This document shows, piece after piece, positions 14,057-47,426 of a stretch of 64,000 nucleotides of DNA. The notes under the pieces were generated by a model that did not search any database, was not told where the DNA came from, and saw only the letters and a list, made by a program, of their open reading frames with translations. Each line of letters opens with the position of its first letter. Position 1 is the first letter of the stretch. The position numbers were made by a program, and so were the translations under genes. Source of the DNA: an uncultured Clostridia bacterium (GTDB lineage: Bacteria > Bacillota > Clostridia > Christensenellales > CAG-917); assembly GCA_944349635.1 (NCBI GenBank), contig CALVNH010000001.1:400385-464384 (forward strand). The letters are read 5' to 3'.

Positions 14057-14362
14057 ATGGACGTTTTGCTCCCATCCGACGAAGTTATGAAGAAAATGGC
14101 GGAAGAATACGCCCGTATGCTGGACGACGGTCGCCCTCGCGCGCAAGCGCTGGAATGCGCTCCCCTCCCGTCGTCACGCGAACGGAGCGGGTGTTGCTCC
14201 CTCGGCTTCCCCGCGTTTTTTGCGCTTTACTTTGCCTTCGCTTTGGGGTATAATTTCGGATATGGAAATGCAGTTGCTTACGCCGACGGAAATATGGGAG
14301 GGGTTCAATCCCGTAAAGGAGAACACGGAGACCTCGATTGTTTCTTCCCGCGAAAACGATAA
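14057..14362 (+). CDS. Doubtful small ORF after the ger operon
   Basis: A 101-codon frame begins 7 bases after a GGAGG site (14046-14050), which is its only support. The first 30 residues could be a helix (MKKMAEEYARMLDDGR). The last third overlaps the next, much better supported gene in another frame and has no recognisable domain. It may be a remnant or a short peptide that ends differently. Confidence 0.25.
   Translation: MDVLLPSDEVMKKMAEEYARMLDDGRPRAQALECAPLPSSRERSGCCSLGFPAFFALYFAFALGYNFGYGNAVAYADGNMGGVQSRKGEHGDLDCFFPRKR
14226..14254 (+). promoter_or_regulatory. Promoter abutting the hydrolase start codon (leaderless)
   Basis: TTTACT (14226-14231), a 17-base spacer and a perfect TATAAT (14249-14254). 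Only 7 bases separate the -10 box from the ATG at 14262, so the transcript should begin at or next to the start codon. A partial match to a sigma-F type -10 (GGGTATAAT) also exists. Confidence 0.7.
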
Positions 14363-15941
14363 CATCGTCACGTCGGAACTCTTTTTCACGTCCGAAAAAA
14401 CGCGGGACGGAAGAGTCCGCGTTTTCGCGCGCATAAGCTACGACATGAGATGGCGAGACCCCCGTCCCGCCATTTTGATTCTCCCTTCGCAGGATTCCTC
14501 CCGTCGCTTCGACGACATCTCCGCTTCTCTCGTCAAAGAGGGTTATGTGGTCTGTATATGCGACTATTGCGGCAATTTCGGAGGCGACGACGAAAACACG
14601 CACACGGCTTATCCCGACGAATACTCCTATGCGCAGGCGCCGAAATGTTTCGCGGGGCTTTACACTCTCACCACCACGGGCAGAGACTCGGCGTGGTTCC
14701 AATGGGCAAAAGTTGCCCGCCGCGCCATAACAATGATTTCGGAAATGCGCTACGTCGACGCGGAACGCATCGCCGTTATGGGCGCCGACAACGGCGCGCA
14801 GATTGCATGGCAGGTCGCGGGAATGGACGGCAGAGTCCGTGCCGCAATCCCCATTAACGGGGGCGGATATCTATGGTGCAAGGACCGCAGCCGTTTCGAA
14901 GGCAACACCCTTCCGCGAAACGACGAGGAACGTGCGTTTTCCGCGGGAGTCGGCGCAGAAACTTATGCAAAATTCGTCTCCTGCCCCGTATGTTATATCG
15001 TTTCCTCCAACTCCGTGTACACGGACGTGGACCGTGCGGGAGACATCCTCGCTCTCGTGCCGGCAAAAGCGAAAAACCTGATGATTGTCCGCGGCTCCGC
15101 CGCTCAAATCAGCCTGTCCGTATACGAAAGCCTTATGGTGTGGCTACGCAAGAATTTTGCCCACGACAGCGCCCCGACGCCCATGCCGTCCGTGCGCTTC
15201 GAAGCCGACGAGAACTCGTTGTACCTGCACGCGGTATCCCCCGCCTCTCCCGACAAGCTCTCCGTCTTCGTTTCCCGCGGCGAACCCGTTTCTTTCGCGA
15301 GAACGTGGGCGCCTCTCTCGGAAGGACAGCAGGTCGGCGACCACGAGCTCACCTTCCGAATTCCCGTCGAGAACCCCGACGAAATCGTGGTAGCGTACGC
15401 CTCGGCGGTGTCCGACGACGGAGTGCTTTCGTGCTCTCCCGTCTCCGCGTTTCTTCCTTCGGAAGCGGGCATTTCCGCCGTCACGGGCGCGAGCACGGGC
15501 TCTTCCCGCATAATCTATTCCGGCGACATGGGGAAAGGTCTGTTCTGGGTCACCACCGACGACTTCTTCCTGGACGACTCCCTGCCGTCGGTCACGACGG
15601 GTCCGTTCGGAATAAAAGGAATTTCCACTTCCAAAGGGAAGCTGGTGCTTTGCCGCACCACTCACGACGACTTTTCGTCGGGCAAAAACGCAATCTTGCA
15701 GATGGACGTTTACAGCCCCGAAAAAAAGACGGTCTGCTTCGGGTTCATCTCCTATCCCGACATGACGCTGTACCGAGGATACGTCGCCTTGCAAGGCGGA
15801 GACTTCTGGCAGAAAATCAAGCTTTCCGCTTCCGACATGAAGAGCGAGGAAGGCAGACCTCTTCCCCGTTTCGGAATCTGCAAACAGATGACGATTGCCG
15901 ACGCGGAAAACGTCGTGTTCAACAACATAATCTGGATTTGA
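14262..15941 (+). CDS. Alpha/beta-hydrolase-fold protein with Asp at the nucleophile elbow
   Basis: The N-terminal half of this 559-residue protein resembles acetyl xylan esterase or dienelactone-hydrolase-like enzymes, with the strand-turn-helix region RIAVMGADNGAQIAW. The usual GxSxG elbow reads G174-A-D-N-G178, so Asp176 replaces the serine nucleophile. The enzyme may use Asp (as haloalkane dehalogenases do) or be inactive. The C-terminal half (about 330-559) looks like beta-rich sequence. There is no signal peptide, so it is probably cytoplasmic. The start is placed at 14262 because the promoter ends 7 bases upstream and no ribosome site exists. The substrate is unknown. Confidence 0.65.
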   Translation: MEMQLLTPTEIWEGFNPVKENTETSIVSSRENDNIVTSELFFTSEKTRDGRVRVFARISYDMRWRDPRPAILILPSQDSSRRFDDISASLVKEGYVVCICDYCGNFGGDDENTHTAYPDEYSYAQAPKCFAGLYTLTTTGRDSAWFQWAKVARRAITMISEMRYVDAERIAVMGADNGAQIAWQVAGMDGRVRAAIPINGGGYLWCKDRSRFEGNTLPRNDEERAFSAGVGAETYAKFVSCPVCYIVSSNSVYTDVDRAGDILALVPAKAKNLMIVRGSAAQISLSVYESLMVWLRKNFAHDSAPTPMPSVRFEADENSLYLHAVSPASPDKLSVFVSRGEPVSFARTWAPLSEGQQVGDHELTFRIPVENPDEIVVAYASAVSDDGVLSCSPVSAFLPSEAGISAVTGASTGSSRIIYSGDMGKGLFWVTTDDFFLDDSLPSVTTGPFGIKGISTSKGKLVLCRTTHDDFSSGKNAILQMDVYSPEKKTVCFGFISYPDMTLYRGYVALQGGDFWQKIKLSASDMKSEEGRPLPRFGICKQMTIADAENVVFNNIIWI

Positions 15942-15947
15942 GAAGTT

Positions 15948-15977
15948 TTGCCATTTAATCGCTGGCTCCGCATAAAT
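15948..15977 (+). promoter_or_regulatory. Promoter abutting the lepB start codon
   Basis: TTGCCA (15948-15953) and, after 17 bases, CATAAA (15971-15976; ATAAAT one base later is an alternative). The ATG is at 15985, 7-8 bases after the -10 box, and no ribosome site is visible. Confidence 0.55.
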
Positions 15978-15984
15978 TATTGCT

Positions 15985-16554
15985 ATGGAAGAACAAGAGA
16001 GAGTTTTGAACGAAAGCCCCTTTCAGAAAAAAAGACGCGTCGTTTCCGCACTGATTGCCGTTGCGGTGATTCTCGTGCTTGCCACCGCCGCCGCGCTGCT
16101 GGTCCGCCACTACGTGCTGGCGACTTTCATCGTGGACGGTCCCTCGATGAACCCAACCCTGAACGGAGGCGGAGAGGCTCTCGACGACGGAGACACCCTC
16201 GTGCTGAATCGCGTCGCGACGCCGAAACGCGGCGACATAGTGGTCTTTTACTTCGACGGTGACGGCAACGGGCGCAATCTCGTGAAAAGAGTTATCGCGG
16301 TGGGCGGCGACACCGTCACAATCAAGAACAACGCCGTCTACCTGAACGGCGAACTTCTGCAAGAGAACTACGTTGCGGAGCCCATGGTGACCGCCGACAT
16401 CGAAGTCACCGTGTCGGAGGGCTGTCTGTTCGTTATGGGCGACAACCGCAACGAGAGTTACGACAGCAGATTTTTCGGGGAAATTTCCTGCGACAGCGTT
16501 GTGGGAAAATGTTTTTTGATTGTAGGCACCGACAACAAATTGCGTCTTCCGTGA
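15985..16554 (+). CDS. lepB: Signal peptidase I
   Basis: This membrane protease removes signal peptides from exported proteins. The 189-residue protein has one N-terminal membrane anchor (about 21-41). Catalytic Ser54 lies in GPSMNPTL and the general base Lys101 in LVKRVIAVGGD. The conserved GDNRNESYDSR box follows. The size and single anchor are typical of Gram-positive type I peptidases. It is preceded by a promoter directly against the ATG and followed by a terminator, so it is probably monocistronic. Confidence 0.94.
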   Translation: MEEQERVLNESPFQKKRRVVSALIAVAVILVLATAAALLVRHYVLATFIVDGPSMNPTLNGGGEALDDGDTLVLNRVATPKRGDIVVFYFDGDGNGRNLVKRVIAVGGDTVTIKNNAVYLNGELLQENYVAEPMVTADIEVTVSEGCLFVMGDNRNESYDSRFFGEISCDSVVGKCFLIVGTDNKLRLP

Positions 16555-16616
16555 GTCCCGACGCGCTTTTCCGACGACGTCGCTTCCGAGACAACGCACC
16601 GAATCGCAAATTTGAC

Positions 16617-16642
16617 AAAAGCGCGGTTTGTCCGCGCTTTTT
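16617..16642. terminator. Bidirectional terminator between lepB and the oxidoreductase
   Basis: GCGCGG (16621-16626) pairs with CCGCGC (16632-16637), extended by A/T pairs, with T-runs on both strands. It can end both convergent genes. Confidence 0.75.
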
Positions 16643-16737
16643 CATTGCTTGAACCTGTTGTTTTTGAAATTTTGCATGGTTTGCCGCTTCAACGAAACGT
16701 CCGCTTCGCACGGCGTGCCGCACCGCCCTGCCGTCGT

Positions 16738-18239: not shown

Positions 18240-18244
18240 TGCTT

Positions 18245-18721
18245 ATGCACGCTTTGACACGTCAGATAGTTGTTGTTTGTTTCGGCACGCCCTCGATTTC
18301 GGGCGATTCGCTGGGGCCCGAAGTCGGCTCCCTGCTCCGCGAGGACGAAAGATTCCCCGCCTACGTCTACGGCACTCTCGACCGCCCGATAACGGGCAGA
18401 AACATGAGCGAGTGGATTTCCTTCGTGGAAGAGGCGCACAGGGACGCGCTCTTCGTCGCCGTGGACGCGTGCCTGGGTGACCGTCGGAATCTCGGAAAAA
18501 TCTCCGTGCGCTCCGACGGAGTCTGCCCCGCCGCCGTGGGTGGAAGAAAAAAACGGTTCGGCGACGTGGGAATCATCGCCGTAGTCGGCGACAAAACAAA
18601 GGACGCCCTGTCCGAACTTATGCAGGTAAACGCGGTTTACGTGTCCGAACTCGCGCTTAAAGTCTCGGATATGATAAAAGCCGCCGTTTCGTCACTCGAC
18701 TCTCCCGCCGTGGTATTTTAA
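18245..18721 (+). CDS. yyaC: YyaC-like sporulation protein (DUF1256)
   Basis: The 158-residue protein matches the YyaC family, distant relatives of the GPR spore protease, by the blocks GDSLGPEVG, YVYGTLDRPI and VAVDACLGD. Its biochemical role is not settled. It supports the conclusion that this organism sporulates. The ATG at 18245 has no ribosome site and lies just after a possible forespore promoter. A TTG upstream at 18203 would add 14 residues unlike the family. It is divergent from the oxidoreductase gene. Confidence 0.85.
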   Translation: MHALTRQIVVVCFGTPSISGDSLGPEVGSLLREDERFPAYVYGTLDRPITGRNMSEWISFVEEAHRDALFVAVDACLGDRRNLGKISVRSDGVCPAAVGGRKKRFGDVGIIAVVGDKTKDALSELMQVNAVYVSELALKVSDMIKAAVSSLDSPAVVF

Positions 18722-29414: not shown

Positions 29415-30506
29415 TCACTCTCCGTCTGCGGCCCTGCCGTCTTCTATCAGTATTCTGCGGCAATTCACATTGAGTCTGAATTCCGTACAAGTGAGAATTG
29501 TCTGTATTCCCGCCGTCAGTTCGACGAGTTGTCTTTGCCTCACCTCGTCGAGTTCGCTCATGACGTCGTCAAGCAGAAGCACGGGCGTTTCGCCGCTTTC
29601 CGAAGAAAACATCTCCACTTCCCCGAATTTCATCGCAAGCGCGATTGAGCGTTGTTGTCCCTGCGAAGCGAACTTTCTGGCGTCGGTTCCGTTAAGGCAT
29701 ATTGCGATGTCGTCGCGATGAGGTCCCACCGTTCCGAAACCGAGTTGTTTGTCTTTTTCGCGGCTCTGAACGATTTTGAGATAAAGCTCCTCTTTCAGCC
29801 CGGCCTCGTCCGCTGCCCGCATCGGAGTTTCGTACGTCAGTGAAAGGTTTTCTTTGTTTTCGCTGATTGCGGCATGATATTTTGCCGCCGCGGCGTTCAG
29901 TTGTTCGACATATCTCTTTCTCCTGAAAACAAGCGCGGCGCCGTACTCCGCAAGTTGAGCGTCCCACACCGAAAGCATATCGTCGGCGTTATGCACGTAT
30001 CTGTTGTCCTTCAAAAGATTGTTTTTCTGTTTCAACACCTTGTTGTAGCGCGACAATGCCGAAAAATACGCCTTTTGCTGTTGTGAAAGTCCGACGTCGA
30101 GAAACCTTCTTCTTTCTGCGGGAGTTTCTTTTACCAGTCTCATTTCGTCGGGTGAAAAATAAACCACTCCGAGCACACCGATGAGCTCTGCGGCACGCTT
30201 TACAGGAAGCCCGTCAACCGCAACCTTTTTCTTTCCGTTCGCCTCTATCTGCATGGCTACCGTGTGTGTGCCGAACTTTTTTTCCACAGTGGCTTTGATT
30301 CTTGCTTTTTCCGCACCGAACATCACCAGTTCCTTGTCTTTCGTGGTGCGCGGTGAGGTGAAAAGCGAAAGCAGATACACACTCTCGAGAGCGTTTGTCT
30401 TTCCTGCCCCGTTTTTGCCGTAAAGGACGTTCAATCCGTCTCCGAAACGGATGTTTTGGGAATGGTAATTCCGGAATTTTTCGAGTTGAATTGACGTGAT
30501 TTTCAT
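29415..30506 (-). CDS. recF: DNA replication and repair protein RecF
   Basis: RecF is an SMC-like ATPase that loads RecA at single-strand gaps as part of RecFOR. The 363-residue protein carries Walker A GKNGAGKT at 30-37. The ABC-type signature region, around SQGQQRSIALAMK, and Walker B LLLDDVMSELD are near the C-terminus. It is divergent from dnaA with only about 100 bases between starts, and it is followed in the same unit by the metal exporter gene. The ribosome site is weak (AAGAG). Confidence 0.95.
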   Translation of the reverse strand: MKITSIQLEKFRNYHSQNIRFGDGLNVLYGKNGAGKTNALESVYLLSLFTSPRTTKDKELVMFGAEKARIKATVEKKFGTHTVAMQIEANGKKKVAVDGLPVKRAAELIGVLGVVYFSPDEMRLVKETPAERRRFLDVGLSQQQKAYFSALSRYNKVLKQKNNLLKDNRYVHNADDMLSVWDAQLAEYGAALVFRRKRYVEQLNAAAAKYHAAISENKENLSLTYETPMRAADEAGLKEELYLKIVQSREKDKQLGFGTVGPHRDDIAICLNGTDARKFASQGQQRSIALAMKFGEVEMFSSESGETPVLLLDDVMSELDEVRQRQLVELTAGIQTILTCTEFRLNVNCRRILIEDGRAADGE

Positions 30507-30574
30507 TCGCTCTTACGGTGTTTTGCGGCTCGACGTCTATATGTAGTGGTTTGTTTTTATTTTGACTTTTCCGC

Positions 30575-30603
30575 TTGAAAAAATCAAGCGTTTTTATTAT
30601 AAT
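30575..30603 (+). promoter_or_regulatory. Promoter abutting the dnaA start codon (leaderless)
   Basis: TTGAAA (30575-30580), 17 bases, TATAAT (30598-30603). Only 7 bases, GTCTCCT, lie between the -10 box and the ATG at 30611, and no Shine-Dalgarno sequence is present. Confidence 0.75.
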
Positions 30604-30610
30604 GTCTCCT

Positions 30611-31981
30611 ATGGTCAACAAGGAAGAGTTTTGGAGCGACGTAAAAAACGAGCTTTCAAAAACCATGCAGGCAATAAGCTACGAGGTTTGGATTGAAAAG
30701 CTCGAGCCTGTTTGTTTTATGGACAACGTTTTTGTTTTGTCCACCATTTCCGCGACCTCAAAAAAGACCATAGAAAACAGATATCTCGACCAGATTCGCG
30801 AAATCGTCAACAATCTTAACTCTTTCATCACCGATGTGGAAATAATAATTCAGGACCAAGAAGAGGAATATCTTAAAAAACAAAGCATTTCCCTTCCTGA
30901 AAAAGGTCTGATTATCGACGGCGTTTCTCCCGTCAAACCGGAAAAACGCGCCCCCTTCCTCGAAAAATACACATTCGACACTTTCGTACAGGGTAAATCC
31001 AACGAATATGCCCTTGCCGCAGCCAAAACCGTCGCGGAAAATCCCGGCGGAAAGTACAATCCTCTTTTTATTTACAGCGGCGTGGGTCTCGGAAAAACAC
31101 ATCTTCTGCACGCGATAGGGAATTTCCTTGCGAAAAACTCTCCGAAAACCAAGGTTGTTTACGCAAATTCCGAAAAAATCGTCAACGACCTCATCGGCGT
31201 CATTCGCGGCAACAGCAACGAACAGACCAACCTTTTCAGGGAAAGATACCGTTCCTGCGACGTGCTTATGATTGACGACGTACAGTTTTTGAGCGGAAAA
31301 GAGGCCACACAGGAAGCCTTCTTCCACATCTTCAACGACCTCTATCAGTCAAACAAACAAATCATTCTCACTTCCGACAGGGCGCCGAAAGACTTACCCA
31401 CACTCGAAGAGCGTCTGCGCACGAGGTTTTCGTGGGGCTTGTCCGTCGACATTCAGCCGCCGGATATGGAAACAAGAGTTGCCATTCTGAAAATGAAAGC
31501 CTCGCATGAAAAATTCATGCTTTCGGACGAAGTCGCGGAATTTATCGCCGAAAACGCGACCACGAACATCCGTGATATGGAAGGGCTGCTCAACAAGATT
31601 ATCTTTTTCAGTTCCTTGACCAACCGCCCTATAAACACTAGGGAATTGGCATACGACGCGTTGCAGGATTTCATCGACGAAAAGAAAGACACGCTCGACG
31701 CAGGCGATATCGTATCAACGGTGTGCAAATATTTCAAAATAACGACAGCCGACATTTTTTCGAAAAAGAAAACCAAAAACATCGTAGAGCCGAGAATGAT
31801 TGCTATTTACCTGATTACGGAACTGCTCTCCATGCCTCTCGTGTCAATCGGACAGATGTTCGGAGGGCGTGACCACACCACCGTAATTCACGCGCGCGAC
31901 AAAATCAGCGAGGAAATAAAGACAAACACGAGAATAAAAATCGTTGTTGCCGACCTGAAAAACATGTTGTTGAACAGATAA
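30611..31981 (+). CDS. dnaA: Chromosomal replication initiator protein DnaA
   Basis: DnaA binds origin boxes, opens the duplex and recruits the helicase. From ATG 30611 the protein is 456 residues, with domain I at the N-terminus and a short acidic linker. The AAA+ domain has Walker A GVGLGKTH at 157-164 and Walker B MIDDVQFL. The C-terminal DNA-binding domain carries the signature GRDHTTVIHA. The frame is open to 30575, but that part is the promoter. Its context is unusual: dnaN lies downstream in the opposite direction and recF is divergent. Confidence 0.97.
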   Translation: MVNKEEFWSDVKNELSKTMQAISYEVWIEKLEPVCFMDNVFVLSTISATSKKTIENRYLDQIREIVNNLNSFITDVEIIIQDQEEEYLKKQSISLPEKGLIIDGVSPVKPEKRAPFLEKYTFDTFVQGKSNEYALAAAKTVAENPGGKYNPLFIYSGVGLGKTHLLHAIGNFLAKNSPKTKVVYANSEKIVNDLIGVIRGNSNEQTNLFRERYRSCDVLMIDDVQFLSGKEATQEAFFHIFNDLYQSNKQIILTSDRAPKDLPTLEERLRTRFSWGLSVDIQPPDMETRVAILKMKASHEKFMLSDEVAEFIAENATTNIRDMEGLLNKIIFFSSLTNRPINTRELAYDALQDFIDEKKDTLDAGDIVSTVCKYFKITTADIFSKKKTKNIVEPRMIAIYLITELLSMPLVSIGQMFGGRDHTTVIHARDKISEEIKTNTRIKIVVADLKNMLLNR

Positions 31982-31989
31982 CGTCAATT

Positions 31990-32039
31990 AAATCGGATTC
32001 CGCGGCGGTATGGCGATTTTCGGAATCCGATTTTTTTTT
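31990..32039 (+). terminator. Intrinsic terminator of dnaA
   Basis: A 13-base perfect stem (31990-32002 with 32021-32033) is followed by a run of T residues. Confidence 0.9.
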
Positions 32040-32080
32040 ATTCTTCGGTTGATAAATAATATACCGCACGAAGAATCCTG

Positions 32081-32110
32081 AAAAAAAACACCCTCTTTCG
32101 AGAGTGTTTT
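32081..32110 (-). terminator. Intrinsic terminator of dnaN
   Basis: On the minus strand a stem (AAAACACTCT pairing with AGAGGGTGTTTT, one bulged base) is followed by a run of T residues (complement of 32081-32088). Confidence 0.8.
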
Positions 32111-32121
32111 TGTTTTTCCTG

Positions 32122-33222
32122 TCAAACAATTACGCGCAACGGCAGAATCAGATACAACCAGCCGTCCGTTGCTCCTTTTATGATTACCGGCGCGGTGGAT
32201 GTTGTGAAGTGGAAAGTGACAAATTCCTCGTCTATTGCTTTCATGCACTCCATTATGAATTTGCTGTTGAATCCCGCCGTCAAATCCTTGCCTTTGAGAG
32301 AAATGGGTACACGCTCGTTCACTGTGCCCTCTTCGCTTTCCGCGCTGAGATTCATGCTGTCCTCTTTGATGTCGAATTTGACGCAATATCTTTTTGAATT
32401 TCTGTTTATGAGAGATACGCGGTCAATCGCATTTTCAAAGATTTTTTTGTCTATTGTAACTTCCGTGTTGAAAACCGTCTGAATGATTTTGCTGTAACTT
32501 ATATAATTTTCGGCAATCAGTCTGGTGACGATTTTGGTGTGGAAAAGGTCGACCATGATGTAGTTTTTGTCGACATAGACGGTCATTGTTTCGTCCTCGT
32601 CGTCGATGAGTCTGCTGAGCTCCATCATGCTTTTTGCGGGAACGACGATGCTGTCCACGATGCCGTTGTTTTTAATCGGCATTTTTGAAAGCGCGAGCCT
32701 GTAACCGTCAGAAGCCACTCCTTCGAGTTCCTCTTCTTTTATATTCAGACAACATCCTCTTAAAGAAGGACGGGCTTCATCCGTAGCAACGTTGAAAATT
32801 ATTTTGTTGATGAGGTCTTTGAGATTCTTTTTCAGAATGATAAAAGAATTCTCTTTTGCCACTTCGTTGAAAACCGGGTAGTCGTCGGCATCGTAACATT
32901 TTATTGAAACGTCGCTGTCGAGGTATTTGATAATAAGTTTGTTTTCGCCGGTGGCATCGAGTTCCACCTGCTCTTCTTCTATTTTTTTCGCATAATCGGC
33001 AAGCAGTTTTCCGGGAACGACGCATTCCCCTTCAATGAGGACTTCCGCATTTATCTTTTTTTCGATGGCAAGTTCGAGGTCTGTAGCGAAAACGGTGAGA
33101 GTGTCGCCTTCCGCAGTAAGTTTAACTCCGTCGAGAATGGGATTGCTTCTTTTTACCGGCAATGCTTTTGTGACTTTCGCAAGAGCGTCGCTGAGTTCCG
33201 CTCCTTGACAAACAACTTTCAT
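32122..33222 (-). CDS. dnaN: DNA polymerase III beta subunit (sliding clamp)
   Basis: DnaN forms the ring that tethers replicative polymerase to DNA. The 366 residues make the three repeated clamp domains, start with MKVVCQGAELSDALAKVTKA and end with LPLRVIV, close to the usual clamp C-terminus. An AGAAGGCGG ribosome site precedes the ATG. The gene is convergent with dnaA and divergent from parA, unlike the common dnaA-dnaN operon. Confidence 0.96.
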   Translation of the reverse strand: MKVVCQGAELSDALAKVTKALPVKRSNPILDGVKLTAEGDTLTVFATDLELAIEKKINAEVLIEGECVVPGKLLADYAKKIEEEQVELDATGENKLIIKYLDSDVSIKCYDADDYPVFNEVAKENSFIILKKNLKDLINKIIFNVATDEARPSLRGCCLNIKEEELEGVASDGYRLALSKMPIKNNGIVDSIVVPAKSMMELSRLIDDEDETMTVYVDKNYIMVDLFHTKIVTRLIAENYISYSKIIQTVFNTEVTIDKKIFENAIDRVSLINRNSKRYCVKFDIKEDSMNLSAESEEGTVNERVPISLKGKDLTAGFNSKFIMECMKAIDEEFVTFHFTTSTAPVIIKGATDGWLYLILPLRVIV

Positions 33223-33469: not shown

Positions 33470-33498
33470 TTGAAAAAAAGCGTCTGTTAATATATACT
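33470..33498 (+). promoter_or_regulatory. Promoter abutting the parA start codon (leaderless)
   Basis: TTGAAA (33470-33475), 17 bases, TATACT (33493-33498), then 6 bases to the ATG at 33505. No Shine-Dalgarno sequence is visible. The layout matches that of dnaA. Confidence 0.75.
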
Positions 33499-33504: not shown

Positions 33505-34272
33505 ATGGCAAAGGTAATTTCGTTTTCCAATCAAAAGGGAGGCGTCGGAAAGACGACAACCTGTGTGAATCTTGCGGCATATATAGCGCTGTCCGGAAAG
33601 AAGGTGCTTGTTGTCGACATGGACCCGCAGGGCAACGCGTCCAGCGCGTTGGGGTTTTTCGAAAGAACGGACAAAAAATCTGTGTATGAAGTTCTTTGCA
33701 ACAATCTTTCCGTCGGAAGTGCCGTCAAAAAAACGGAAATAGAAAACCTTTTCATCATCACGTCTTCCAACAATCTTGCGGGAGCCGAACTCGAACTTGC
33801 GCAGGTGGTGATAGGAAGAGAGCGCGTACTTGAAGAAAAAATCGAAGAAATAAAAGCGTTTTACGATTATATTTTCATTGACTGTCCCCCTTCTCTCGGG
33901 CTTCTCACGGTGAATGCGCTTTGTGCCTGCGACGGGGTCGTCGTGCCGATACAATGCGAATATTTCGCCCTCGAAGGGTTGTCGCAGATGATGAACACAA
34001 TAAAGCTCGTCAAAAAATTTCTTAAACCCGAAATAAGCGTCGAAGGCGTTGTGTTGACGCTTTACGACAGTCGCTCGAAACTCTCCAAAGAAGTGGGAAG
34101 CGAAATAGACAAATTCTTTGCAAACAAAGTGTTTTCGGTAAAAATTCCGAGAAACGTGAGGCTAGCGGAAGCTCCGAGTTACGGAAAACCCGTTGCGCTT
34201 TACGACAACAAATGTGCCGGCGCCGTGGCTTACAAGGCACTGGCGGAAGAATTTTCAGAAAAAATAAAGTGA
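33505..34272 (+). CDS. parA: Chromosome partitioning ATPase ParA (Soj)
   Basis: ParA dimerises on DNA with ATP and is driven by ParB to move origins; in Bacillus it also modulates DnaA. The 255-residue protein has the deviant Walker A KGGVGKTT at 11-18 with signature Lys11, then DMDPQGNASS and DCPPSLGLLTVNAL. There is no N-terminal extension, so it is the short Soj-type. The frame is open upstream, but the ATG at 33505 matches the family start and follows directly on its promoter. parB starts 7 bases downstream. Confidence 0.96.
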   Translation: MAKVISFSNQKGGVGKTTTCVNLAAYIALSGKKVLVVDMDPQGNASSALGFFERTDKKSVYEVLCNNLSVGSAVKKTEIENLFIITSSNNLAGAELELAQVVIGRERVLEEKIEEIKAFYDYIFIDCPPSLGLLTVNALCACDGVVVPIQCEYFALEGLSQMMNTIKLVKKFLKPEISVEGVVLTLYDSRSKLSKEVGSEIDKFFANKVFSVKIPRNVRLAEAPSYGKPVALYDNKCAGAVAYKALAEEFSEKIK

Positions 34273-34279: not shown

Positions 34280-35173
34280 ATGGCTGCAAAAGGCGGACTC
34301 GGCGGAAAAGGATTGACTGCTCTTTTCACCGACAACGAAGAAAACGTGAAGGTCGAAGTTAAGGATATGCCTACAACCGAGGTCGATATCTCTCTTATAG
34401 ACCGCAACCCAAACCAACCCAGAAAAACCTTCGATGAGGACAGCCTTAAAGAGATGTCCACATCAATTGCCGCATACGGGGTATTGCAACCGCTGTTGCT
34501 GGTAAAACACGAAGGCGGAAGGTATCTGATAATAGCGGGCGAACGCCGTTTTCGCGCCGCGATGATGGCGGGATTGAAAAAAGTTCCCGCAATCATAAGA
34601 GATTTCACCGAACAACAAATTCAGGAAATTTCACTTATCGAGAACCTGCACCGTGAAGATTTGAACGCAATCGAAGCGGCGGAAGGAATGCGTGAACTCA
34701 TGGAGAATCACGGCCTCACTCAAGAGGATGTGGCAATAAGACTCGGTAAATCCAGACCGTACGTCACAAACACTTTGAGACTGTTGCAGCTGCCGTCGGA
34801 AGTAACTGAGCTTGTCCGCTCGGGAGCACTCTCCCCCGGCCATGCGCGCGCTCTGATTTCGATAGACGACAAAGAGTATCTCATCAATCTCGCAAAGCAG
34901 GCGTGCGACAACAAACTCACCGTTCGCGAAATAGAAAACAGAGTGCGCCTCTATTTCACCAGAAAAGCGATTCCGGGAGGCCCGAGAAAAGAGAGAGAGG
35001 TTTCCGTCGAACTCAAAGAAATGGTCAGCGACATGAAGAGAATTTTCGCAACCAAAGTCAAATTGCTCGGCAACGACAAAAAAGGCAGAATCATCATAGA
35101 TTATTTCAATGAGGACGACATCGACAGAATACACGCGTTGATACAAATTCTCAAACTCAACGAAAAACTGTAA
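34280..35173 (+). CDS. parB: Chromosome partitioning protein ParB (Spo0J)
   Basis: ParB is a CTP-dependent clamp that loads at parS and organises the origin. The 297-residue protein shows the N-terminal NPNQPR segment (43-48), the CTP-binding motif GERRFRA (87-93) and ENLHRE (121-126). A helix-turn-helix around LTQEDVAIRLGKSRPYV binds parS. The C-terminal dimerisation region ends in IHALIQILKL. Three probable target parS sites lie at 41.5-41.9 kb. Confidence 0.96.
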   Translation: MAAKGGLGGKGLTALFTDNEENVKVEVKDMPTTEVDISLIDRNPNQPRKTFDEDSLKEMSTSIAAYGVLQPLLLVKHEGGRYLIIAGERRFRAAMMAGLKKVPAIIRDFTEQQIQEISLIENLHREDLNAIEAAEGMRELMENHGLTQEDVAIRLGKSRPYVTNTLRLLQLPSEVTELVRSGALSPGHARALISIDDKEYLINLAKQACDNKLTVREIENRVRLYFTRKAIPGGPRKEREVSVELKEMVSDMKRIFATKVKLLGNDKKGRIIIDYFNEDDIDRIHALIQILKLNEKL

Positions 35174-35215: not shown

Positions 35216-35896
35216 CTTTATCAGAGAATATCTTCTCGGGTAAGCCTTCGGTGTATCCTTTTGTTTTTCGAAGCACATTATACAACGGCTGTCTCCGTTC
35301 GGCAAAGAAAAAGAAAACAAATCTTTCAACACACCACTCAAAGTTTTGAGAGCGTTGCGCGCCGTTTCCGCTTCCGAGATGTCTGTTTTGTACGCCACAA
35401 AAAATCCACCCTTTTTCAACAGAGGAAAAGAGAGTTCCAACAGCACCGGTAACGAGGCAACGGCTCTTGCGCACACGACGTCGAACAAAGCCGACAAATC
35501 CGAGCAATCTTCGGCTCTGGCGCATTTTCCGTGCACATTGTCAATGCCGAGTTCGCGAACGGCGGAATTGACGAAAACGATTTTCTTTTCCGTGGAATCC
35601 AACGCGATAAAATCGACGTCAGGACGAACAACGGCCAGAGGAACACACGGAAATCCTGCACCGGCACCAATATCGCAGGCCTTTGCGTTGAGAGGAAAGA
35701 ACCGTTCGCCCGCCAAAGAGTCCACAAGATGTTTGACGGTGAACGAATCTGCGTCGGTCAAAGCCGTGAGATTGAACTTTTCGTTTGCTTCCGTCACGAG
35801 AGCAAAAAAACCGTCAAGCAATTCGGCTTGCGCTTCCGAAAGAGGAAACCCGAAAGTTTTCGACGCAGCGGAAAGAAGTTTATAATCAATTCGCAT
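35201..35896 (-). CDS. rsmG: 16S rRNA (guanine-527-N7)-methyltransferase
   Basis: RsmG (GidB) methylates G527 of 16S rRNA using SAM. The 231-residue protein has the SAM-binding motif DIGAGAGFPCVPLA and later VCARAVASLPVLLE, both diagnostic. A GGAG site precedes the ATG. Its first 11 bases overlap the end of the upstream MFS gene, so the pair is co-transcribed. Its proximity to parAB is conserved in many Bacillota, though here it is convergent with them. Confidence 0.94.
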   Translation of the reverse strand: MRIDYKLLSAASKTFGFPLSEAQAELLDGFFALVTEANEKFNLTALTDADSFTVKHLVDSLAGERFFPLNAKACDIGAGAGFPCVPLAVVRPDVDFIALDSTEKKIVFVNSAVRELGIDNVHGKCARAEDCSDLSALFDVVCARAVASLPVLLELSFPLLKKGGFFVAYKTDISEAETARNALKTLSGVLKDLFSFSLPNGDSRCIMCFEKQKDTPKAYPRRYSLIKKNPL

Positions 35897-37643
35897 CGTC
35901 AGTCTCCGCAGCTTCGGTTGGTCCGTCTTTTTTGATTGCTTGTTCCCGCAAATCTTCGTTTACCTTTTCTTCGGCGCCCTCAGAGAAAAATTCGTTGGTT
36001 GTGACGGCTTCGGAAACGTCGTTTTCAGCCGCGACCGACGACACGTCGAACCGTTCTTCCGCTCCGTCTTCGGACGATTGCCCGCTCTCCGATTCCGAAA
36101 CAAGGACATCTTTTCCTCCCGTGGAAGCCTTTTGCCTTTTTACGGGCATTTTGCCTTTGATAATCACGGTAAACAACAAGGCGAGCACGAGGAAGAAAAT
36201 ACTGTATGGGAAGAGGACGCGGAAGCCCGCGTTTTCTCCGCCTCCGAACCACGCTCCTCCGACATCGATGAGAGCTCCGGACAAAATCGGAGTTATGACC
36301 ATCGCAACCGTCATCGACATGGCGAAAAGCCCTGTATCTGTGCCGAGAGCCGTCTCCTTCGAAGTTTCCAGGAAGAAAGGATAGATATTGACCATCACAA
36401 GCCCGAAACTTACGCCGAGAACCATGAATATGAAGTACAACGCAGGGTGAGGAGTACTGAAAGCAATACTTGCCGAAAACGCGGCAATCATTATGACAAA
36501 TCCTATCAGGATTGTGTTTTTGCGTCCGATTTTGTTTGACAAAATACTGGCGAGAGGGAATGCAACCATTGCCGCGACCTGAGCAAGAATGAGCGGGACT
36601 ATGGCTTGATTTTGCTGGAAATTCAGAATGTATTCCGCATATTTGATAAAGTTCGACGTAAGTGCGTTGTATGTCATGTAAAAACAGAACACAATCAGCA
36701 GAATGCACACCCTGTTGAAATATCTGTTGTCGCGGAAACTCGGTTTTCTTTCGCCCGTTGCCCGAGATGCAAGCCATTGAGCGCGACGATATTTAATCAA
36801 ATCGAAAACAGAGGGGTGCTCTTTTTCGGGAAGATGCAAAAACTCTTCTTCCTGTGCGGCGTCTTCCGCCGGGGCTGTCGACGTTTCCGTGTTGCCCGAC
36901 GCGATTTCTTCCGCCGACACCGCCGCCGCGTCCGCGCACAAAACCGTGTTTTCGGGGTCGGCTTCCACTATCGGGGCTTCTGCGGCTTCATGTGAAAGCC
37001 TCTCTTTTTCTGCCTGCTCTTCCGCAAGCTTTGCACGCTCCATGTCCTCGACGAACTTCGGTTCTTTTACAGTAAGGCAGAAGCCGAGCAACATAATCAG
37101 CGTGGTTATCGTGAAAGCCGCGCCTATCGCATAGTATCCGTCGAACTGCATGAATATGTAGAAATACAACATCGCCACGACGGTCAGAATGACGGAAACG
37201 ACGTTGCTCACCGCGTTTGCGATACTGCGGAATTTGTCGGCGTTGATGTCCGGAACGAGGGCAAGTGCCGGGCTGCGGTATGCCGCCATTGCGGCAAGCG
37301 TAATCAACAGCGAAATTATAAAAGGAACGAAATAGTCTTTGCCGAGGGAGGCAAAGACGCAAACGCCGAACCAACCCAGCATCGAAACTATCGTTCCTAT
37401 GACGACAAAAGGCTTTCGTTTTCCGAAGCGCGAATGCGATTTGTCCGACAATCTTCCGAACAGCGGCAATAAAAACAAACCGAGAATGTTGTCCGCCGCG
37501 ATGATTACGCCGTGCCATGTGGAGCTGAGCCCGAACACGTCGTAATCGAACAACTGCATAATCGAGTCGTACGAGCCCCAGAAAAGGGAAATCCATCCGA
37601 AAGCCAAAGAACAGGCAAGAGTGCGTTTGAGATTGAATTTCAT
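35886..37643 (-). CDS. MFS transporter, GPH/SLC45-like, with long acidic insert
   Basis: The 585-residue protein has about 12 membrane segments. The loop LFGRLSDKSHSRFGKRKP after helix 2 is typical of sugar transporters related to the GPH and SLC45 families. Between the two six-helix halves lies a hydrophilic insert of about 110 residues rich in Glu and Ala. A further acidic tail of about 90 residues follows the last helix. The substrate may be a glycoside; glycosidase genes occur 20 kb away but not adjacent. The promoter ends 6 bases before the ATG and there is no ribosome site. Confidence 0.75.
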   Translation of the reverse strand: MKFNLKRTLACSLAFGWISLFWGSYDSIMQLFDYDVFGLSSTWHGVIIAADNILGLFLLPLFGRLSDKSHSRFGKRKPFVVIGTIVSMLGWFGVCVFASLGKDYFVPFIISLLITLAAMAAYRSPALALVPDINADKFRSIANAVSNVVSVILTVVAMLYFYIFMQFDGYYAIGAAFTITTLIMLLGFCLTVKEPKFVEDMERAKLAEEQAEKERLSHEAAEAPIVEADPENTVLCADAAAVSAEEIASGNTETSTAPAEDAAQEEEFLHLPEKEHPSVFDLIKYRRAQWLASRATGERKPSFRDNRYFNRVCILLIVFCFYMTYNALTSNFIKYAEYILNFQQNQAIVPLILAQVAAMVAFPLASILSNKIGRKNTILIGFVIMIAAFSASIAFSTPHPALYFIFMVLGVSFGLVMVNIYPFFLETSKETALGTDTGLFAMSMTVAMVITPILSGALIDVGGAWFGGGENAGFRVLFPYSIFFLVLALLFTVIIKGKMPVKRQKASTGGKDVLVSESESGQSSEDGAEERFDVSSVAAENDVSEAVTTNEFFSEGAEEKVNEDLREQAIKKDGPTEAAETDDAN

Positions 37644-37649: not shown

Positions 37650-37678
37650 ATGATAGCATTAAAAAACACTTAAAGCAA
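37650..37678 (-). promoter_or_regulatory. Promoter abutting the MFS start codon (leaderless)
   Basis: Minus-strand TTGCTT (37673-37678), a 17-base spacer and TATCAT (37650-37655), then 6 bases to the ATG. No Shine-Dalgarno sequence is present. Confidence 0.6.
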
Positions 37679-43541: not shown

Positions 43542-43854
43542 CGAAATCGGGCGGAAGACTTTATTAACCCTAGTTAATATTAGGGCGAGACTTCCGTTAT
43601 GCGGGCGGATTGCGCCGGGTTGCGGTAAATTCGCGGACGGCGCGAGCGGAAAGGCATGGTGTTTTCTGCGGTCGAAAGCGGAACTGCGGAAACGAATTTC
43701 GGATTCGGGGTAAAGAGGAGAAACCGACGACGGTAAAAACACGGGAACATAGTTCCCGTGTTTGATTTTATGGGATTGCAAAGTTGTGTTGTTCGCCGCA
43801 ACGGCGTTGTCGACGAAAACCGGGTTGCCGCCGCATATTGTTTGACGGCAGGAA
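43542..43854. other. Gene-free gap after nagB
   Basis: It holds an imperfect hairpin around 43551-43600 (CGGAAG with CTTCCG, with an inner CCCTA/TAGGG stem) and the nagB terminator at 43737-43766. Nothing else is recognisable. Confidence 0.5.
43737..43766 (+). terminator. Intrinsic terminator of nagB
   Basis: A 12-base perfect stem (43737-43748 with 43752-43763) and an ATA loop, followed by T-rich sequence. Confidence 0.8.
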
Positions 43855-44892
43855 TCAGGGGAGAAATTTTGCCGAGCGGACGTTTTTTTCGGGTTGAACC
43901 GAGGGCAGAGAAGGGACGGAATCCATTCGTCCGCCGGACCCGACGGAAGGCGCCGTGACGTGTGGAAAATACGGTGCGCCGACGCGCGGAGAGGCGCGGC
44001 GCTCTTTTCTTTTTTGGGAATGAAGCCTTATGGTATCGAAGTCCCCGATATACACTTTGTTTCGGGGTTTCGTGACGTTCACTTTGAGCGAGCCTTCCAC
44101 CGCGACGGCATCTCCGTCCACGTCGAATACGCATTTGCCGTTCAGTTTTATATCGAGATTGCGCACTCCTTTGAAAACCAGATTTTTGCTCTCCGTTTCA
44201 CGGCGAAACCCTATGAAAAACGCGCGGAACAGCGGGAAAAATATTTTAATTCTGTTGAGCAGGGAATCTTTCCCCGGGCTCTTTATCAGCAAAAGATGAA
44301 TTTTTCCGTCGTCGGGGGCGTAAAGCTTGTTGAAAGGAAAGCCGAAACAGCGTACGGAATCTATTGCCATAATCAGGGTATAATCTCCCTTGTACACGGC
44401 GTCGTCCGCAGTGACGGCGGCTCCAATCGAATAAACCCTGTATTCCTTTATTACGCGCAAAAGGTATGCGAGAATGCCGAGACGCTGTTTTTTTTCGGCG
44501 GGGATAACGTAGCCGAGAGGGGTGAACGACCCCGCCGCCGCGACATAGCCGAAATATTCTCCGTTGGCGCAGGCGTATTCCGAAAGACCGATGAACTCTC
44601 CTTTGTCTTTGTTTTTGCCTTTTGCCTTCGCGCACTCGTTGAAAGTGCCGGCGCCGTAATATATGAGGTCGGCGCCGTCTTCTGCACAGACGTTGAGCGC
44701 GCGGTTGAAAGTTCCGTCGCCGCCGCATGCAACCACGAGAGAAAAGCCCTTCGCGCTCCACGTATCGGAGGGGGAGAGAATCCTTTTGACATAGACGGAA
44801 TATGCGGCGCCGAATTTTTCCACAAGCGCGGTTTCGTCGATTCTTGAAGAGCGTCCGCTCAGGGTGTTGATGACGATAAGGCATTTTTTCAT
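43855..44892 (-). CDS. Diacylglycerol kinase family lipid kinase
   Basis: The 345-residue protein resembles the DagK/YegS/sphingosine kinase family, which phosphorylates lipid alcohols. It has the nucleotide-binding motif VVACGGDGTFNRAL and the conserved late motif FDVDGDAV. The second domain is a beta-sandwich. The last 50 residues (after SQKRKERRAS) are basic, then Pro/Ser-rich, and are an unusual extension. No clear ribosome site precedes the ATG; a possible promoter ends about 55 bases upstream. It is divergent from galU. Confidence 0.85.
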   Translation of the reverse strand: MKKCLIVINTLSGRSSRIDETALVEKFGAAYSVYVKRILSPSDTWSAKGFSLVVACGGDGTFNRALNVCAEDGADLIYYGAGTFNECAKAKGKNKDKGEFIGLSEYACANGEYFGYVAAAGSFTPLGYVIPAEKKQRLGILAYLLRVIKEYRVYSIGAAVTADDAVYKGDYTLIMAIDSVRCFGFPFNKLYAPDDGKIHLLLIKSPGKDSLLNRIKIFFPLFRAFFIGFRRETESKNLVFKGVRNLDIKLNGKCVFDVDGDAVAVEGSLKVNVTKPRNKVYIGDFDTIRLHSQKRKERRASPRVGAPYFPHVTAPSVGSGGRMDSVPSLPSVQPEKNVRSAKFLP

Positions 44893-45010
44893 AGTAAGAG
44901 GTCTGCGGTTGTGCGTCGAGGCAACCGGTCATTCACTATTATGCGCAGAAAAAACGGAATTGTGTAAAAAGTCGGCAAAAGGATTGTGTTGGTCGAAAAG
45001 AGGTGCGGAG

Positions 45011-45039
45011 TTGCAAAAACGGCCGCAGTGGTATAAAAT
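45011..45039 (+). promoter_or_regulatory. Promoter of galU
   Basis: TTGCAA (45011-45016), a 17-base spacer and TAAAAT (45034-45039). The 80-base leader contains a perfect 8-base hairpin (45062-45069 with 45073-45080) with a TCG loop. Confidence 0.6.
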
Positions 45040-45125
45040 AATATAAGAAGCTCAAAAGGCTGTTCCGCGTCGCGCGGAACGGCAGGGCGTCCGTCCGAAA
45101 GGCGCGAACATCCGAGGAGGTGCGT

Positions 45126-45977
45126 ATGCGGAAAATCACGAAAGCGGTAATTCCGGCCGCGGGTCACGGCACACGGTTTTTGCCCGTGACGAAAGCGGTG
45201 CCGAAAGAGATGCTCGCCATCATCGACAAGCCCGCCGTCCATTACATAGCGCAGGAAGCCGCGGACAGCGGAATTACGGACATACTGTTTGTAGTAAGCC
45301 GCGACAAAGCCGCAATAAAGAACTATTTTTCCGCAGGCGGTGCGGGCGGCGACGAGCTGGACGAGCTGTTGCGTCGCGTGCGCGTCGATTTTGCATATCA
45401 GGACGAGGCAACGGGAACGGCGGGAGCCGTGAAACTCGCCAGAGAGTTTACGGGAGACGACGCGTTTGCCGTGATGTACGGCGACGACGTCATCGTGAAC
45501 GAGGGCGGCAAGCCTTGCGTGGCGCAGCTTGCCGAAGTGTATTATAACACGGGAAAACCCGTTCTGGGCGTTCAGGAAAGACCGGAGGAAGAGGCAACGA
45601 AGTACGCCGTGATAAAAAAAGGAAGAACCGAGGGTAGGTGCACCGAGGTGTTGGGCATAGCGGAAAAACCCGCCATCGGGAACATGGCGTCCAACCTTTG
45701 CAGTTTGGGAAGATACATTCTGACGCCTGCCGTTTACGACGCCATAGAGCGCGCTCCGCTGTTTCGCGGGGAAAGATATCTCACGCACGCGATAGAGCTT
45801 ATGATTCCGGAAGGGGTGTACGCCTACGATTTCGAGGGAACGAGGTACGACCTCGGCGACAAATTCGGTTTTTTGCAGGCAAACGTCGAGGAGGGACTGC
45901 GCCGTTACGGCGACAAACTCGCAAGCTATCTGCGCGGATTGCTCTCCGACGGAAGCGACGGCAAAACGGAGAGATAG
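45126..45977 (+). CDS. galU: UTP-glucose-1-phosphate uridylyltransferase
   Basis: The enzyme makes UDP-glucose for glycolipid, polysaccharide and galactose metabolism. The 283-residue protein begins with the nucleotidyltransferase signature PAAGHGTRFLPVTKAVPKEM and contains VVSRDKAAIKNYF and VMYGDDVIV. The ATG at 45126 is preceded by GAGGAGGTG. UDP-glucose, together with the lipid kinase and glmM alongside, suggests an envelope precursor neighbourhood. Confidence 0.93.
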   Translation: MRKITKAVIPAAGHGTRFLPVTKAVPKEMLAIIDKPAVHYIAQEAADSGITDILFVVSRDKAAIKNYFSAGGAGGDELDELLRRVRVDFAYQDEATGTAGAVKLAREFTGDDAFAVMYGDDVIVNEGGKPCVAQLAEVYYNTGKPVLGVQERPEEEATKYAVIKKGRTEGRCTEVLGIAEKPAIGNMASNLCSLGRYILTPAVYDAIERAPLFRGERYLTHAIELMIPEGVYAYDFEGTRYDLGDKFGFLQANVEEGLRRYGDKLASYLRGLLSDGSDGKTER

Positions 45978-46008
45978 AGTTAGGCGCGTAAAACGGGCGA
46001 TAAAAAGA

Positions 46009-46037
46009 CAAAACGCACGCAAAAACGTGCGTTTTTG
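46009..46037. terminator. Terminator between galU and glmM
   Basis: AAAACGCACG (46010-46019) and CGTGCGTTTT (46026-46035) form a perfect stem followed by T residues on the plus strand; the opposite strand has a weaker T-run. Confidence 0.82.
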
Positions 46038-46061
46038 TTTTATTCGGCTTGATTTGTCGAA

Positions 46062-47390
46062 TCAAAGGGAGTAATTGCTCCTTATGAACAGTTCTATGCT
46101 GCGGGCGGCAAAGCCCGCAAGAAAGCCGTCCTCGCTTTCCGCCATTATGCGGATTTTCTTTTCCGTGCCGCTGGGACGCAACATGATTCTTCCGCGTTCC
46201 CCCAGCATGTCCTCTATCGTGCGGACGTAATCACGCAGGCGTTTGTCGCAAACGATTTTTTCTTTTTCCGCCGTGACGATTTCGGCGTTTACCTGCGGGA
46301 AGGGGCGGCAATCGTTGAGAGCGGAAAGTTTGCCGCCCGAAGCCCGAACCGCATTTGCAAGCACAGCGCCCGCCAGCATTCCGTCACCCGTCTGGGAAAA
46401 CTCGCGCAGGATGATGTGTCCCGACTGTTCGCCGCCAACAGACAAACCCTCATCGCACATCTTTTCGATTACGTTGTGGTCTCCGACGTCCGTTCTGACG
46501 AGGGAAATTCCGAGGCTTCCGAGCGCGGCTTCCACTCCCATGTTTGTGTGAATGGTGCCAACCACGGTGTCGTGTGGGAGCCGCCCCTGCGATTTCAGCC
46601 TGCGGGCGAGAATGTAAATTATCATATCTCCGTCCACGACTTTTCCGTTTTCGTCGACGGCAATGACTCTGTCGGCGTCTCCGTCGAAAGAAAAGCCCAT
46701 ATCCGCGCCCGTACGCAGAACCTCTTTTGCCACGGCGTCCGGGTGCAGGGCACCGCACCCCGCGTTTATCAGGCGTCCGTCGGACGAGTCGTTGACGACA
46801 AACACGCAGGCACCCGCGCGGCGGAAAAGCTCCGGAGCAACGGCGCCCGCCGCTCCGTTGGCGCAATCCAGCACTATGTTCAGTCCGTCGAGCTTGCACG
46901 CGGAGCGGAACATTTTGTCGTAACAGGCAAAGGCGTCGTCGCTTCCGACGGTATTGCCGCGGTACTGAGCGTAATATAGTTTGGCTTCGGCAATGTGTTT
47001 TTCCACCTCGATTTCCTTTGATTCGGAGAGCTTTTTGCCGTCATTGCCGAAAATTTTGATTCCGTTGTAGGCGGGAGGATTGTGAGAGGCGCTTATCATT
47101 ACGCCGAAAGTCGCGTTTCGACACGCCGTGACGAAAGCAACGCAGGGAGTTGGCACAACCCCCATATCCATGACGTCCGCGCCCGCCGCAAGCGCCCCTT
47201 CGCACACGGCACGCGCGAGATTGTTCCCGCTGACGCGAGTATCGCGTCCGACGACGACAAGTCCGCCTTTTGCACTCATACCCAGCTTGTTTCCCACCAG
47301 CATGGCAAGACCGTCGGTGAGTTCTTCACCGTAAATTCCGCGGATTCCGTCCGTTCCGAAATATCTTTTGCACGAGCTGTGATTTGACAT
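46062..47390 (-). CDS. glmM: Phosphoglucosamine mutase
   Basis: GlmM converts glucosamine-6-phosphate to glucosamine-1-phosphate for UDP-GlcNAc and cell wall synthesis. The 442-residue protein starts with RYFGTDGIRG. It has the phosphoserine loop MISASHNPPAYNG (Ser102), the metal-binding loop FDGDADR and the C-terminal phosphate-binding LRPSGTEKKIR. It opposes nagB metabolically. No ribosome site precedes the ATG; a promoter -10 box ends 6 bases upstream. Confidence 0.95.
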   Translation of the reverse strand: MSNHSSCKRYFGTDGIRGIYGEELTDGLAMLVGNKLGMSAKGGLVVVGRDTRVSGNNLARAVCEGALAAGADVMDMGVVPTPCVAFVTACRNATFGVMISASHNPPAYNGIKIFGNDGKKLSESKEIEVEKHIAEAKLYYAQYRGNTVGSDDAFACYDKMFRSACKLDGLNIVLDCANGAAGAVAPELFRRAGACVFVVNDSSDGRLINAGCGALHPDAVAKEVLRTGADMGFSFDGDADRVIAVDENGKVVDGDMIIYILARRLKSQGRLPHDTVVGTIHTNMGVEAALGSLGISLVRTDVGDHNVIEKMCDEGLSVGGEQSGHIILREFSQTGDGMLAGAVLANAVRASGGKLSALNDCRPFPQVNAEIVTAEKEKIVCDKRLRDYVRTIEDMLGERGRIMLRPSGTEKKIRIMAESEDGFLAGFAARSIELFIRSNYSL

Positions 47391-47396
47391 AGTGCA

Positions 47397-47426
47397 AATA
47401 TATTCCGCAAGAAGGACGCAGGTTAA
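47397..47426 (-). promoter_or_regulatory. Promoter abutting the glmM start codon (leaderless)
   Basis: Minus-strand TTAACC (47421-47426), an 18-base spacer and TATATT (47397-47402), then 6 bases to the ATG. No Shine-Dalgarno sequence. Confidence 0.55.

Follow-up and report, generated by a model that had tools for sequence, protein, structure and literature searches.

Several housekeeping genes in a 64,000-nt stretch of DNA from an uncultured Clostridia bacterium, hereafter the window, lie directly behind promoter-like sequences, which raises the question of whether their mRNAs begin at the start codon itself. Based on sequence comparisons, we consider it highly probable that these genes are leaderless or nearly leaderless transcription units (leaders of 0 to ~3 nt). 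A sigma-A-type housekeeping promoter (TTGnnn / 17-18 nt / TATAnT) would be placed directly on the start codon, and RNA polymerase would initiate at the A of the ATG or immediately upstream of it, ~7 nt past the -10 box, with T at -1 and A at +1. Needing no Shine-Dalgarno (SD) contact, the ribosome may then engage the 5'-terminal AUG. Most other genes, including the neighboring parB, would use ordinary SD sites.

Promoter layout at six genes of the window

The initial annotation described the arrangement for six genes, given here with their candidate promoters.

14226..14254, plus strand: candidate hyd promoter, -35 box at 14226-14231, -10 box TATAAT at 14249-14254, 7 nt to the ATG at 14262
14262..15941, plus strand: hydrolase gene (hyd), predicted leaderless from the layout only, weak match to PF01738 (dienelactone hydrolase family)
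15948..15978, plus strand: candidate lepB promoter, -35 box TTGCCA at 15948-15953, -10 box TAAATT at 15973-15978, 6 nt to the ATG at 15985
15985..16554, plus strand: lepB, signal peptidase I (TIGR02227), predicted leaderless
30575..30603, plus strand: candidate dnaA promoter, -35 box TTGAAA at 30575-30580, -10 box TATAAT at 30598-30603, 7 nt to the ATG at 30611
30611..31981, plus strand: dnaA (TIGR00362), predicted leaderless
33470..33498, plus strand: candidate parA promoter, -35 box TTGAAA at 33470-33475, -10 box TATACT at 33493-33498, 6 nt to the ATG at 33505
33505..34272, plus strand: parA, ParA-type ATPase (profile matches), predicted leaderless
35886..37643, minus strand: MFS transporter gene (PF07690), predicted leaderless
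37650..37678, minus strand: candidate MFS promoter, -35 box at 37678-37673 (3/6 match), -10 box TATCAT at 37655-37650, 6 nt to the ATG at 37643
46062..47390, minus strand: glmM, phosphoglucosamine mutase (TIGR01455, above cut-off), predicted leaderless
47397..47426, minus strand: candidate glmM promoter, -35 box TTAACC at 47426-47421, -10 box TATATT at 47402-47397, 6 nt to the ATG at 47390

Three nearby genes serve for comparison.

29415..30506, minus strand: recF, with the layout in most family relatives and absent from the window copy
32122..33222, minus strand: dnaN, SD-led contrast gene
34280..35173, plus strand: parB, SD-led contrast gene (gaggt), downstream neighbor of parA

The six genes indeed lack an SD, with no run of at least 4 nt complementary to the anti-SD at any of them; recF, dnaN and parB score 4, 4 and 5 under the same rule. 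The -10 box, placed 6-8 bases before the ATG by the initial annotation, is matched by a -10-like hexamer ending at 6-7 nt in all six. A -35 box at a spacing of 17-18 was likewise claimed throughout and holds for dnaA, parA, hyd and glmM (at least 4/6 match), but not for lepB or the MFS gene. lepB has further weak points, as its -10 matches the consensus at 4/6 positions and its best -35 lies at a spacing of 19.

Within the window, a -10 at 6-7 nt precedes 6 of 17 in-frame ATGs without an SD, where the background rate is 0.051 each (binomial P ~2e-4, computed for n = 18). These automatically found cases comprise five of the six genes and a DUF1256 gene at 18245. parA is absent because the automatic rule scored an SD before a downstream in-frame ATG at 33619 and so classed the gene as SD-led.

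Spacing of -10 hexamers across the genome

The distribution of -10-to-ATG distances, proposed as a check by the initial annotation, was compiled for 638 genes in 864 of the 1,348 kb of the genome. It peaks at 6-7 nt, and the peak is confined to genes without an SD (31 observed against 9.5 expected, P = 2.6e-8). With the window removed, the peak stands at 25 against 8.8 (P = 6e-6). There is no such peak at out-of-frame ATGs (7 against 7.4) or SD genes (5 against 25.1 expected). The peak recurs in a genus mate (G006; 15 against 4.9, P = 2e-4) and a family mate (G012; 9 against 2.6, P = 0.0013), and is not seen in a genome from another family of the same order (G074; 3 against 3.3).

The coexistence of two initiation modes, also noted at the outset, is borne out by 496 of the 638 sampled genes being SD-led and by the intact GGATCACCTCCTTT end of 16S rRNA in a genus mate. 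16S rRNA was not found in the MAG that holds the window, and the copies of G008 and G014 were read instead.

Two features were counted over the window's genome, G006 and G012 together. A same-strand neighbor lies within 25 nt of 1/55 candidates and 219/641 SD starts (6 and 35, respectively, being at a stretch end), and the layout occurs at 55/312 ATG, 12/177 GTG and 11/209 TTG starts. Orthologue pairs with the genus mate G006 (identity at least 35%; 153 of the 168) share a -10 at 6 nt in 8 cases, and at other distances in 0-5, mostly 0-3. The spacing peak, the base at -1 described below, the position at the head of operons, the preference for AUG and the spacing retained by orthologues all favor the leaderless interpretation put forward initially. 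The best reading of the sequences is that leaderless or nearly leaderless mRNAs arise at ~3-4% of genes alongside SD initiation.

It is improbable that these genes instead have ordinary leaders from promoters farther upstream, that initiation is SD-independent and A/U-rich or S1-type, and that TATAAT marks an unstructured AT-rich patch. Several upstream regions are AT-rich, and five AT-rich permutations of TATAAT are also raised 2.1-2.5 fold at 6-7 nt. The peak is nevertheless frame-specific and highest for TATAAT itself, which ranks first among its 20 letter permutations (3.26-fold, the next 2.46). A -35 match of at least 4/6 at promoter spacing is enriched as well (13/31 candidates against 64/339, P = 0.004), although under a looser 3/6 rule the difference is not significant (18/31 against 168/339, P = 0.24). 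Several glmM upstream regions are GC-rich apart from the -35 and -10, and a pyrimidine occupies -1 in 50/55 candidates of the three pooled genomes, against 436/641 SD starts (P = 1e-4).

An unsupervised two-motif model run from eight seeds did not settle on TATAAT as a second motif, probably since the share of leaderless genes is too small; one seed of the eight did yield a second motif resembling TATA, which peaked at 0 and 6 nt, at a likelihood that was no better. Spacing histograms of genes unsplit by SD, in which SD genes dilute the peak, replicate only weakly in a held-out half of the sample (5 against 2.4, P = 0.09; 5 against 1.6, P = 0.02; and 10 against 7.5, P = 0.22, under three rules). 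A k-mer scan is dominated by SD words, with TANNNT at 6 nt prominent (13/243 starts) and no TATAAT word among the words listed. Coarse whole-genome patterns give 70 matches to TATAATN4-9ATG against 32 to the reversed pattern, and 266 to TAWAMTN3-12ATG against 211. For TATAATN6-7ATG relative to the N11-12 form, 43 genomes of the family give a ratio of 1.75, 57 genomes from other families within the order 1.33, and 122 from other orders within the class 1.13; this last figure omits six entries that belong to the window's own genome or to genomes of its order. A 50-kb control stretch of E. coli (36 genes) is too small to inform.

Conservation of the layout in relatives

The layout at dnaA is kept in 23/23 distinct orthologues and, in an overlapping set, in 14/14 family genomes, two of which also have a 4-nt SD run. 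parA retains it in 13/14 distinct orthologues, lepB in 25/28 (window copy counted) and glmM in 11/14; one of the 14 glmM orthologues has an SD of 5 nt or longer. recF differs within the family: 19/25 distinct orthologues have the layout and 3/25 an SD of at least 5 nt. Of 24 distinct dnaN orthologues, 1 has the layout and 14 have an SD of 5 nt or longer. At parB, all 18 distinct orthologues have an SD of at least 5 nt; a -10-like hexamer lies at 9-10 nt in 5/18 despite the SD-led start, so single matches can be chance.

The glmM footprint keeps the -10 and the -35 core while the intervening stretch varies. GAATATA[C/T]T occurs in 9/9 genus sequences (own and eight mates), and the AC of the -35 is in register in 8/9; starts were chosen by a nearby TATA and no sequence was dropped. 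The glmM -10 is just 5 nt from the ATG in 9/11 orthologues, which is short for a start at the A. Column counts for lepB, whose sequences were chosen for a TATA near the ATG, were left out of the evidence.

Of two MFS orthologues, one has the layout and one has an SD of 5 nt or longer, and no hyd orthologue was found in the genome pool. The hyd and MFS cases rest almost wholly on the window itself.

These comparisons also bear on where the genes begin. Start codons called in a MAG are uncertain, and a coding-score caller set the parA start at 33565 and the MFS start at 37607. With the SD-like run that the automatic rule places before the parA ATG at 33619, this could suggest true SD-led starts downstream, the promoter then yielding a normal leader. 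We consider this very unlikely: alignments with orthologues begin at residue 1 for dnaA, parA, most recF and part of lepB and glmM, and the Pfam domains DnaA_N (from residue 5) and ParA ATPase (from residue 2) need these N-termini. The ATG at 33619 lies 38 codons into parA, and the other five genes lack an SD at any nearby in-frame start.

Least credible is a chance, promoter-rich reading of a single window near the origin, for although the window is richer than the remaining genome and striking cases had been selected, the peak persists outside it and in two further genomes and orthologues retain the layout, which refutes chance for the genome set, if not for hyd or the MFS gene singly.

DnaA boxes (TTWTNCACA) number 10 against 4.5 expected but are scattered, and therefore no origin was placed from them.

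Relation to known leaderless genes

The mechanism is already known in other bacteria and usually rare in Clostridia. Zheng et al. (2011) describe TA-led genes with TANNNT ~12 nt upstream of the start (from the first T) and no SD, alongside SD genes; they report them in 56 of 209 Firmicutes genomes, averaging 4.2% there (PMC3160421). The Firmicutes cases in that account concentrate in Lactobacillales and Mycoplasma, whereas the present ones come from an uncultured Clostridia family; the word Clostridia is absent from its main text (PMC3160421).

Reports on mapped Clostridia describe a minority of transcripts that start at AUG. For C. phytofermentans the share is 4% of InterS TSS and for three clostridia ~2-3% of transcripts, while C. 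difficile has 15 such genes and C. acetobutylicum 212 such transcripts (PMC5171806, PMC9045289, PMC7438776, PMC4533764). The frequency here is close to these. The initial annotation expected leaderless genes to be infrequent in Clostridia. The excess in this genome is only ~3-4% of genes; since that is in line with the 2-4% from other Clostridia TSS maps, the genome is less unusual than the window suggests. Unlike in those reports, the candidates here are genes without an SD whose layout is kept across a family.

Actinobacteria and Deinococcus-Thermus are described as sharing the promoter-on-ATG geometry and the mixture of initiation modes (PMC3160421; GeneMarkS-2 figures quoted in PMC9581028), but their leaderless share averages 19% and 39% of genes, compared with ~3-4% here (PMC3160421, PMC9581028).

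The newer element is the family-wide conservation of the predicted layout at replication and segregation genes; at these core chromosome genes the spacing is kept despite large sequence divergence. Leaderless gene usage would thereby extend to a gut family of uncultured Clostridia. We speculate, while thinking it rather unlikely, that this family maintains leaderless initiation as a means of controlling genes of chromosome replication, segregation and repair (dnaA, parA, recF, ung, pcrA), whose output would follow the state of the initiation machinery (e.g., IF2/IF3 balance, free 70S ribosomes), unlike the SD-led bulk (dnaN, parB). Gene finders that expect an SD may misplace the starts of such genes, and antibiotics described as sparing leaderless initiation could act differently on them (PMC9581028).

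Promoter-like hexamers at six start codons

The initial annotation proposed that six genes in the window lack a Shine-Dalgarno (SD) sequence and carry a -10 box just before the ATG, with a -35 box 17-18 nt further up. Direct reading bears out the first two points: a -10-like hexamer ends 6 or 7 nt before every ATG, and an SD-complementary run of at least 4 nt is absent at all six genes. The -35 claim stands for dnaA, parA, hyd and glmM and fails for the MFS gene and lepB.

ATG 14262, forward strand: hyd, hydrolase (weak Pfam match to dienelactone hydrolase); -10 at 7 nt; -35 4/6 at spacing 17, acceptable
ATG 15985, forward strand: lepB, signal peptidase I (family model, above cut-off); -10 at 6 nt, matching 4/6; -35 found only at spacing 19
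ATG 30611, forward strand: dnaA (family model, above cut-off); -10 at 7 nt; -35 TTGAAA, 5/6 at spacing 17, good
ATG 33505, forward strand: parA, ParA-type ATPase (family model, below equivalog cut-offs); -10 at 6 nt; -35 TTGAAA, 5/6 at spacing 17, good
ATG 37643, reverse strand: MFS transporter (Pfam); -10 at 6 nt; -35 weak, 3/6
ATG 47390, reverse strand: glmM (family model, above cut-off); -10 at 6 nt; -35 4/6 at spacing 18, acceptable

A DUF1256 gene (18245-18721) is possibly a seventh leaderless case within the window: an in-frame ATG is preceded at 6 nt by AATAAT, in this gene as in its orthologue in the genus mate G006. Leaders of a few nucleotides and no leader at all look alike in sequence, and the messages are predicted to be leaderless or nearly so.

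Genome-wide spacing of the -10 hexamer

The source genome (1.35 Mb, 89% complete, 17 contigs), of which the window is part, was sampled in stretches totalling 864 of 1,348 kb. A simple custom gene caller yielded 638 genes with a usable start, 496 with an SD and 142 without. Hexamers matching at least 4/6, with A2 and T6 required, were counted against an expectation from distances 10-45. The spacing peak anticipated for genes without SD is present: 31 of 185 in-frame ATGs have a -10 at 6-7 nt (9.5 expected, P = 2.6e-8), and 25 remain with the window removed (8.8 expected, P = 6e-6). Out-of-frame ATGs in the same genes gave 7 against 7.4 expected. SD starts gave 5 against 25.1; an SD at that place leaves scant room for a -10. 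TATAAT ranks first among its 20 permutations at 6-7 nt. The peak was present but weak in a held-out sample unsplit by SD, and an unsupervised model did not recover the signal. The rule detects six genes within the window (hyd, lepB, dnaA, MFS, glmM and the DUF1256 gene); parA is scored as SD-led because of an in-frame ATG downstream, and the count therefore errs low there.

G006 (15 versus 4.9 expected) and the family mate G012 (9 versus 2.6) also show an excess; G074, from another family of the order, shows none (3 versus 3.3). We calculate the excess above background as ~21/638 genes in the source genome and ~38/991 across three family genomes, which is 3-4% of all genes and, in the source genome, ~15% of those without SD. 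The layout also precedes ung (L016:16015, reverse), a pcrA-like helicase gene (L108:4969, forward) and tilS (L106:16069, forward) of the same genome, and is retained at ung in G006.

Conservation among orthologues and relatives

Orthologues (identity at least 35%) came from dnaA, glmM and lepB searches, dnaA loci of family genomes and sampled stretches; identical 40-nt upstreams were counted once, and the -10 was scored at 5-10 nt. It occurs in 23/23 distinct orthologues of dnaA (18 at 7 nt), 13/14 of parA (12 at 6), 25/28 of lepB (17 at 6) and 11/14 of glmM (9 at 5), the window's own copy being counted for the latter two. The 5-nt spacing at glmM of relatives is tight, which weighs against the leaderless reading. 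The SD-led contrast genes dnaN (32122-33222, reverse) and parB (34280-35173, forward) score 1/24 and 5/18; an SD of 5 nt or more precedes 14 of the dnaN and all 18 of the parB orthologues. One of the control windows, 25-30 nt, likewise gives hits at dnaA (17/23), whose AT-rich -35 region lies there. The layout is present at 19/25 recF orthologues, though absent from recF of the window itself.

Within the genus (own copy and eight mates), glmM has GAATATA[C/T]T in 9/9; in 8/9 the -35 keeps its AC in register, and most positions between the two boxes vary, the pattern of a promoter footprint. In this promoter (47397-47426), the invariant GAA directly before the -10 differs from TGn, the usual -10 extension.

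A search of 61 genomes of the order located dnaA in 56, and 54 of the upstream regions were examined (one contig-edge and one incomplete case dropped); these genomes partly overlap those of the orthologue counts. A -10 of 5/6 or better at 5-10 nt precedes dnaA in 14/14 genomes of the source family (f1). It precedes dnaA in 8/40 genomes from 31 other families (in f5, f7, f9, f13, f15, f19 and f24), the f9 and f15 cases being doubtful, one lying 102 nt ahead of where the match begins and the other inside the matched part. SD-like runs of at least 4 nt precede dnaA in 27/40 genomes of other families versus 2/14 in f1. Whole-genome ratios of TATAATN6-7ATG over N11-12 fall from 2.35 in the genus (10 genomes) and 1.75 in the family (43) to 1.33 in the order's other families (57) and 1.13 in the class's other orders (122; family versus class P = 9e-18, uncorrected for relatedness).

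Precedents, start-site context and setting

The TANNNT signal was described by Zheng et al. 2011 (PMC3160421), who give 4.2% for Firmicutes, concentrated in Lactobacillales and Mycoplasma. Transcription start maps of Clostridia report few leaderless transcripts (PMC5171806, PMC9045289, PMC7438776), that of C. acetobutylicum lists 212 (PMC4533764), and 21.6% of bacterial species were predicted by GeneMarkS-2 to use leaderless transcription (figure quoted in PMC9581028). Among open-licence PMC papers, no leaderless report was attributable to the source lineage. The finding therefore extends a known mechanism to a new lineage; the family-wide constancy at dnaA and parA is unusual.

In candidates pooled from the three family genomes, the base preceding the ATG is a pyrimidine in 50/55 cases, versus 74/121 other no-SD and 436/641 SD starts. 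RNA polymerase favours a pyrimidine at -1 followed by a purine at +1. A same-strand neighbour lies within 25 nt upstream in 1/55, versus 47/121 and 219/641, a contrast partly built in because a promoter requires room. By start codon, the layout is more frequent at ATG (55/312) than at GTG (12/177) or TTG (11/209).

A search for 16S in the source genome itself gave no gene; the 16S gene of the genus mate G008 contains GGATCACCTCCTTTT, an intact anti-SD. Across 29415-33222, which holds recF (reverse), dnaA (forward) and dnaN (reverse), there is a dip in GC content and a turn in cumulative GC skew, as near an origin. dnaA and dnaN, which usually form an operon, are convergent here and share none.
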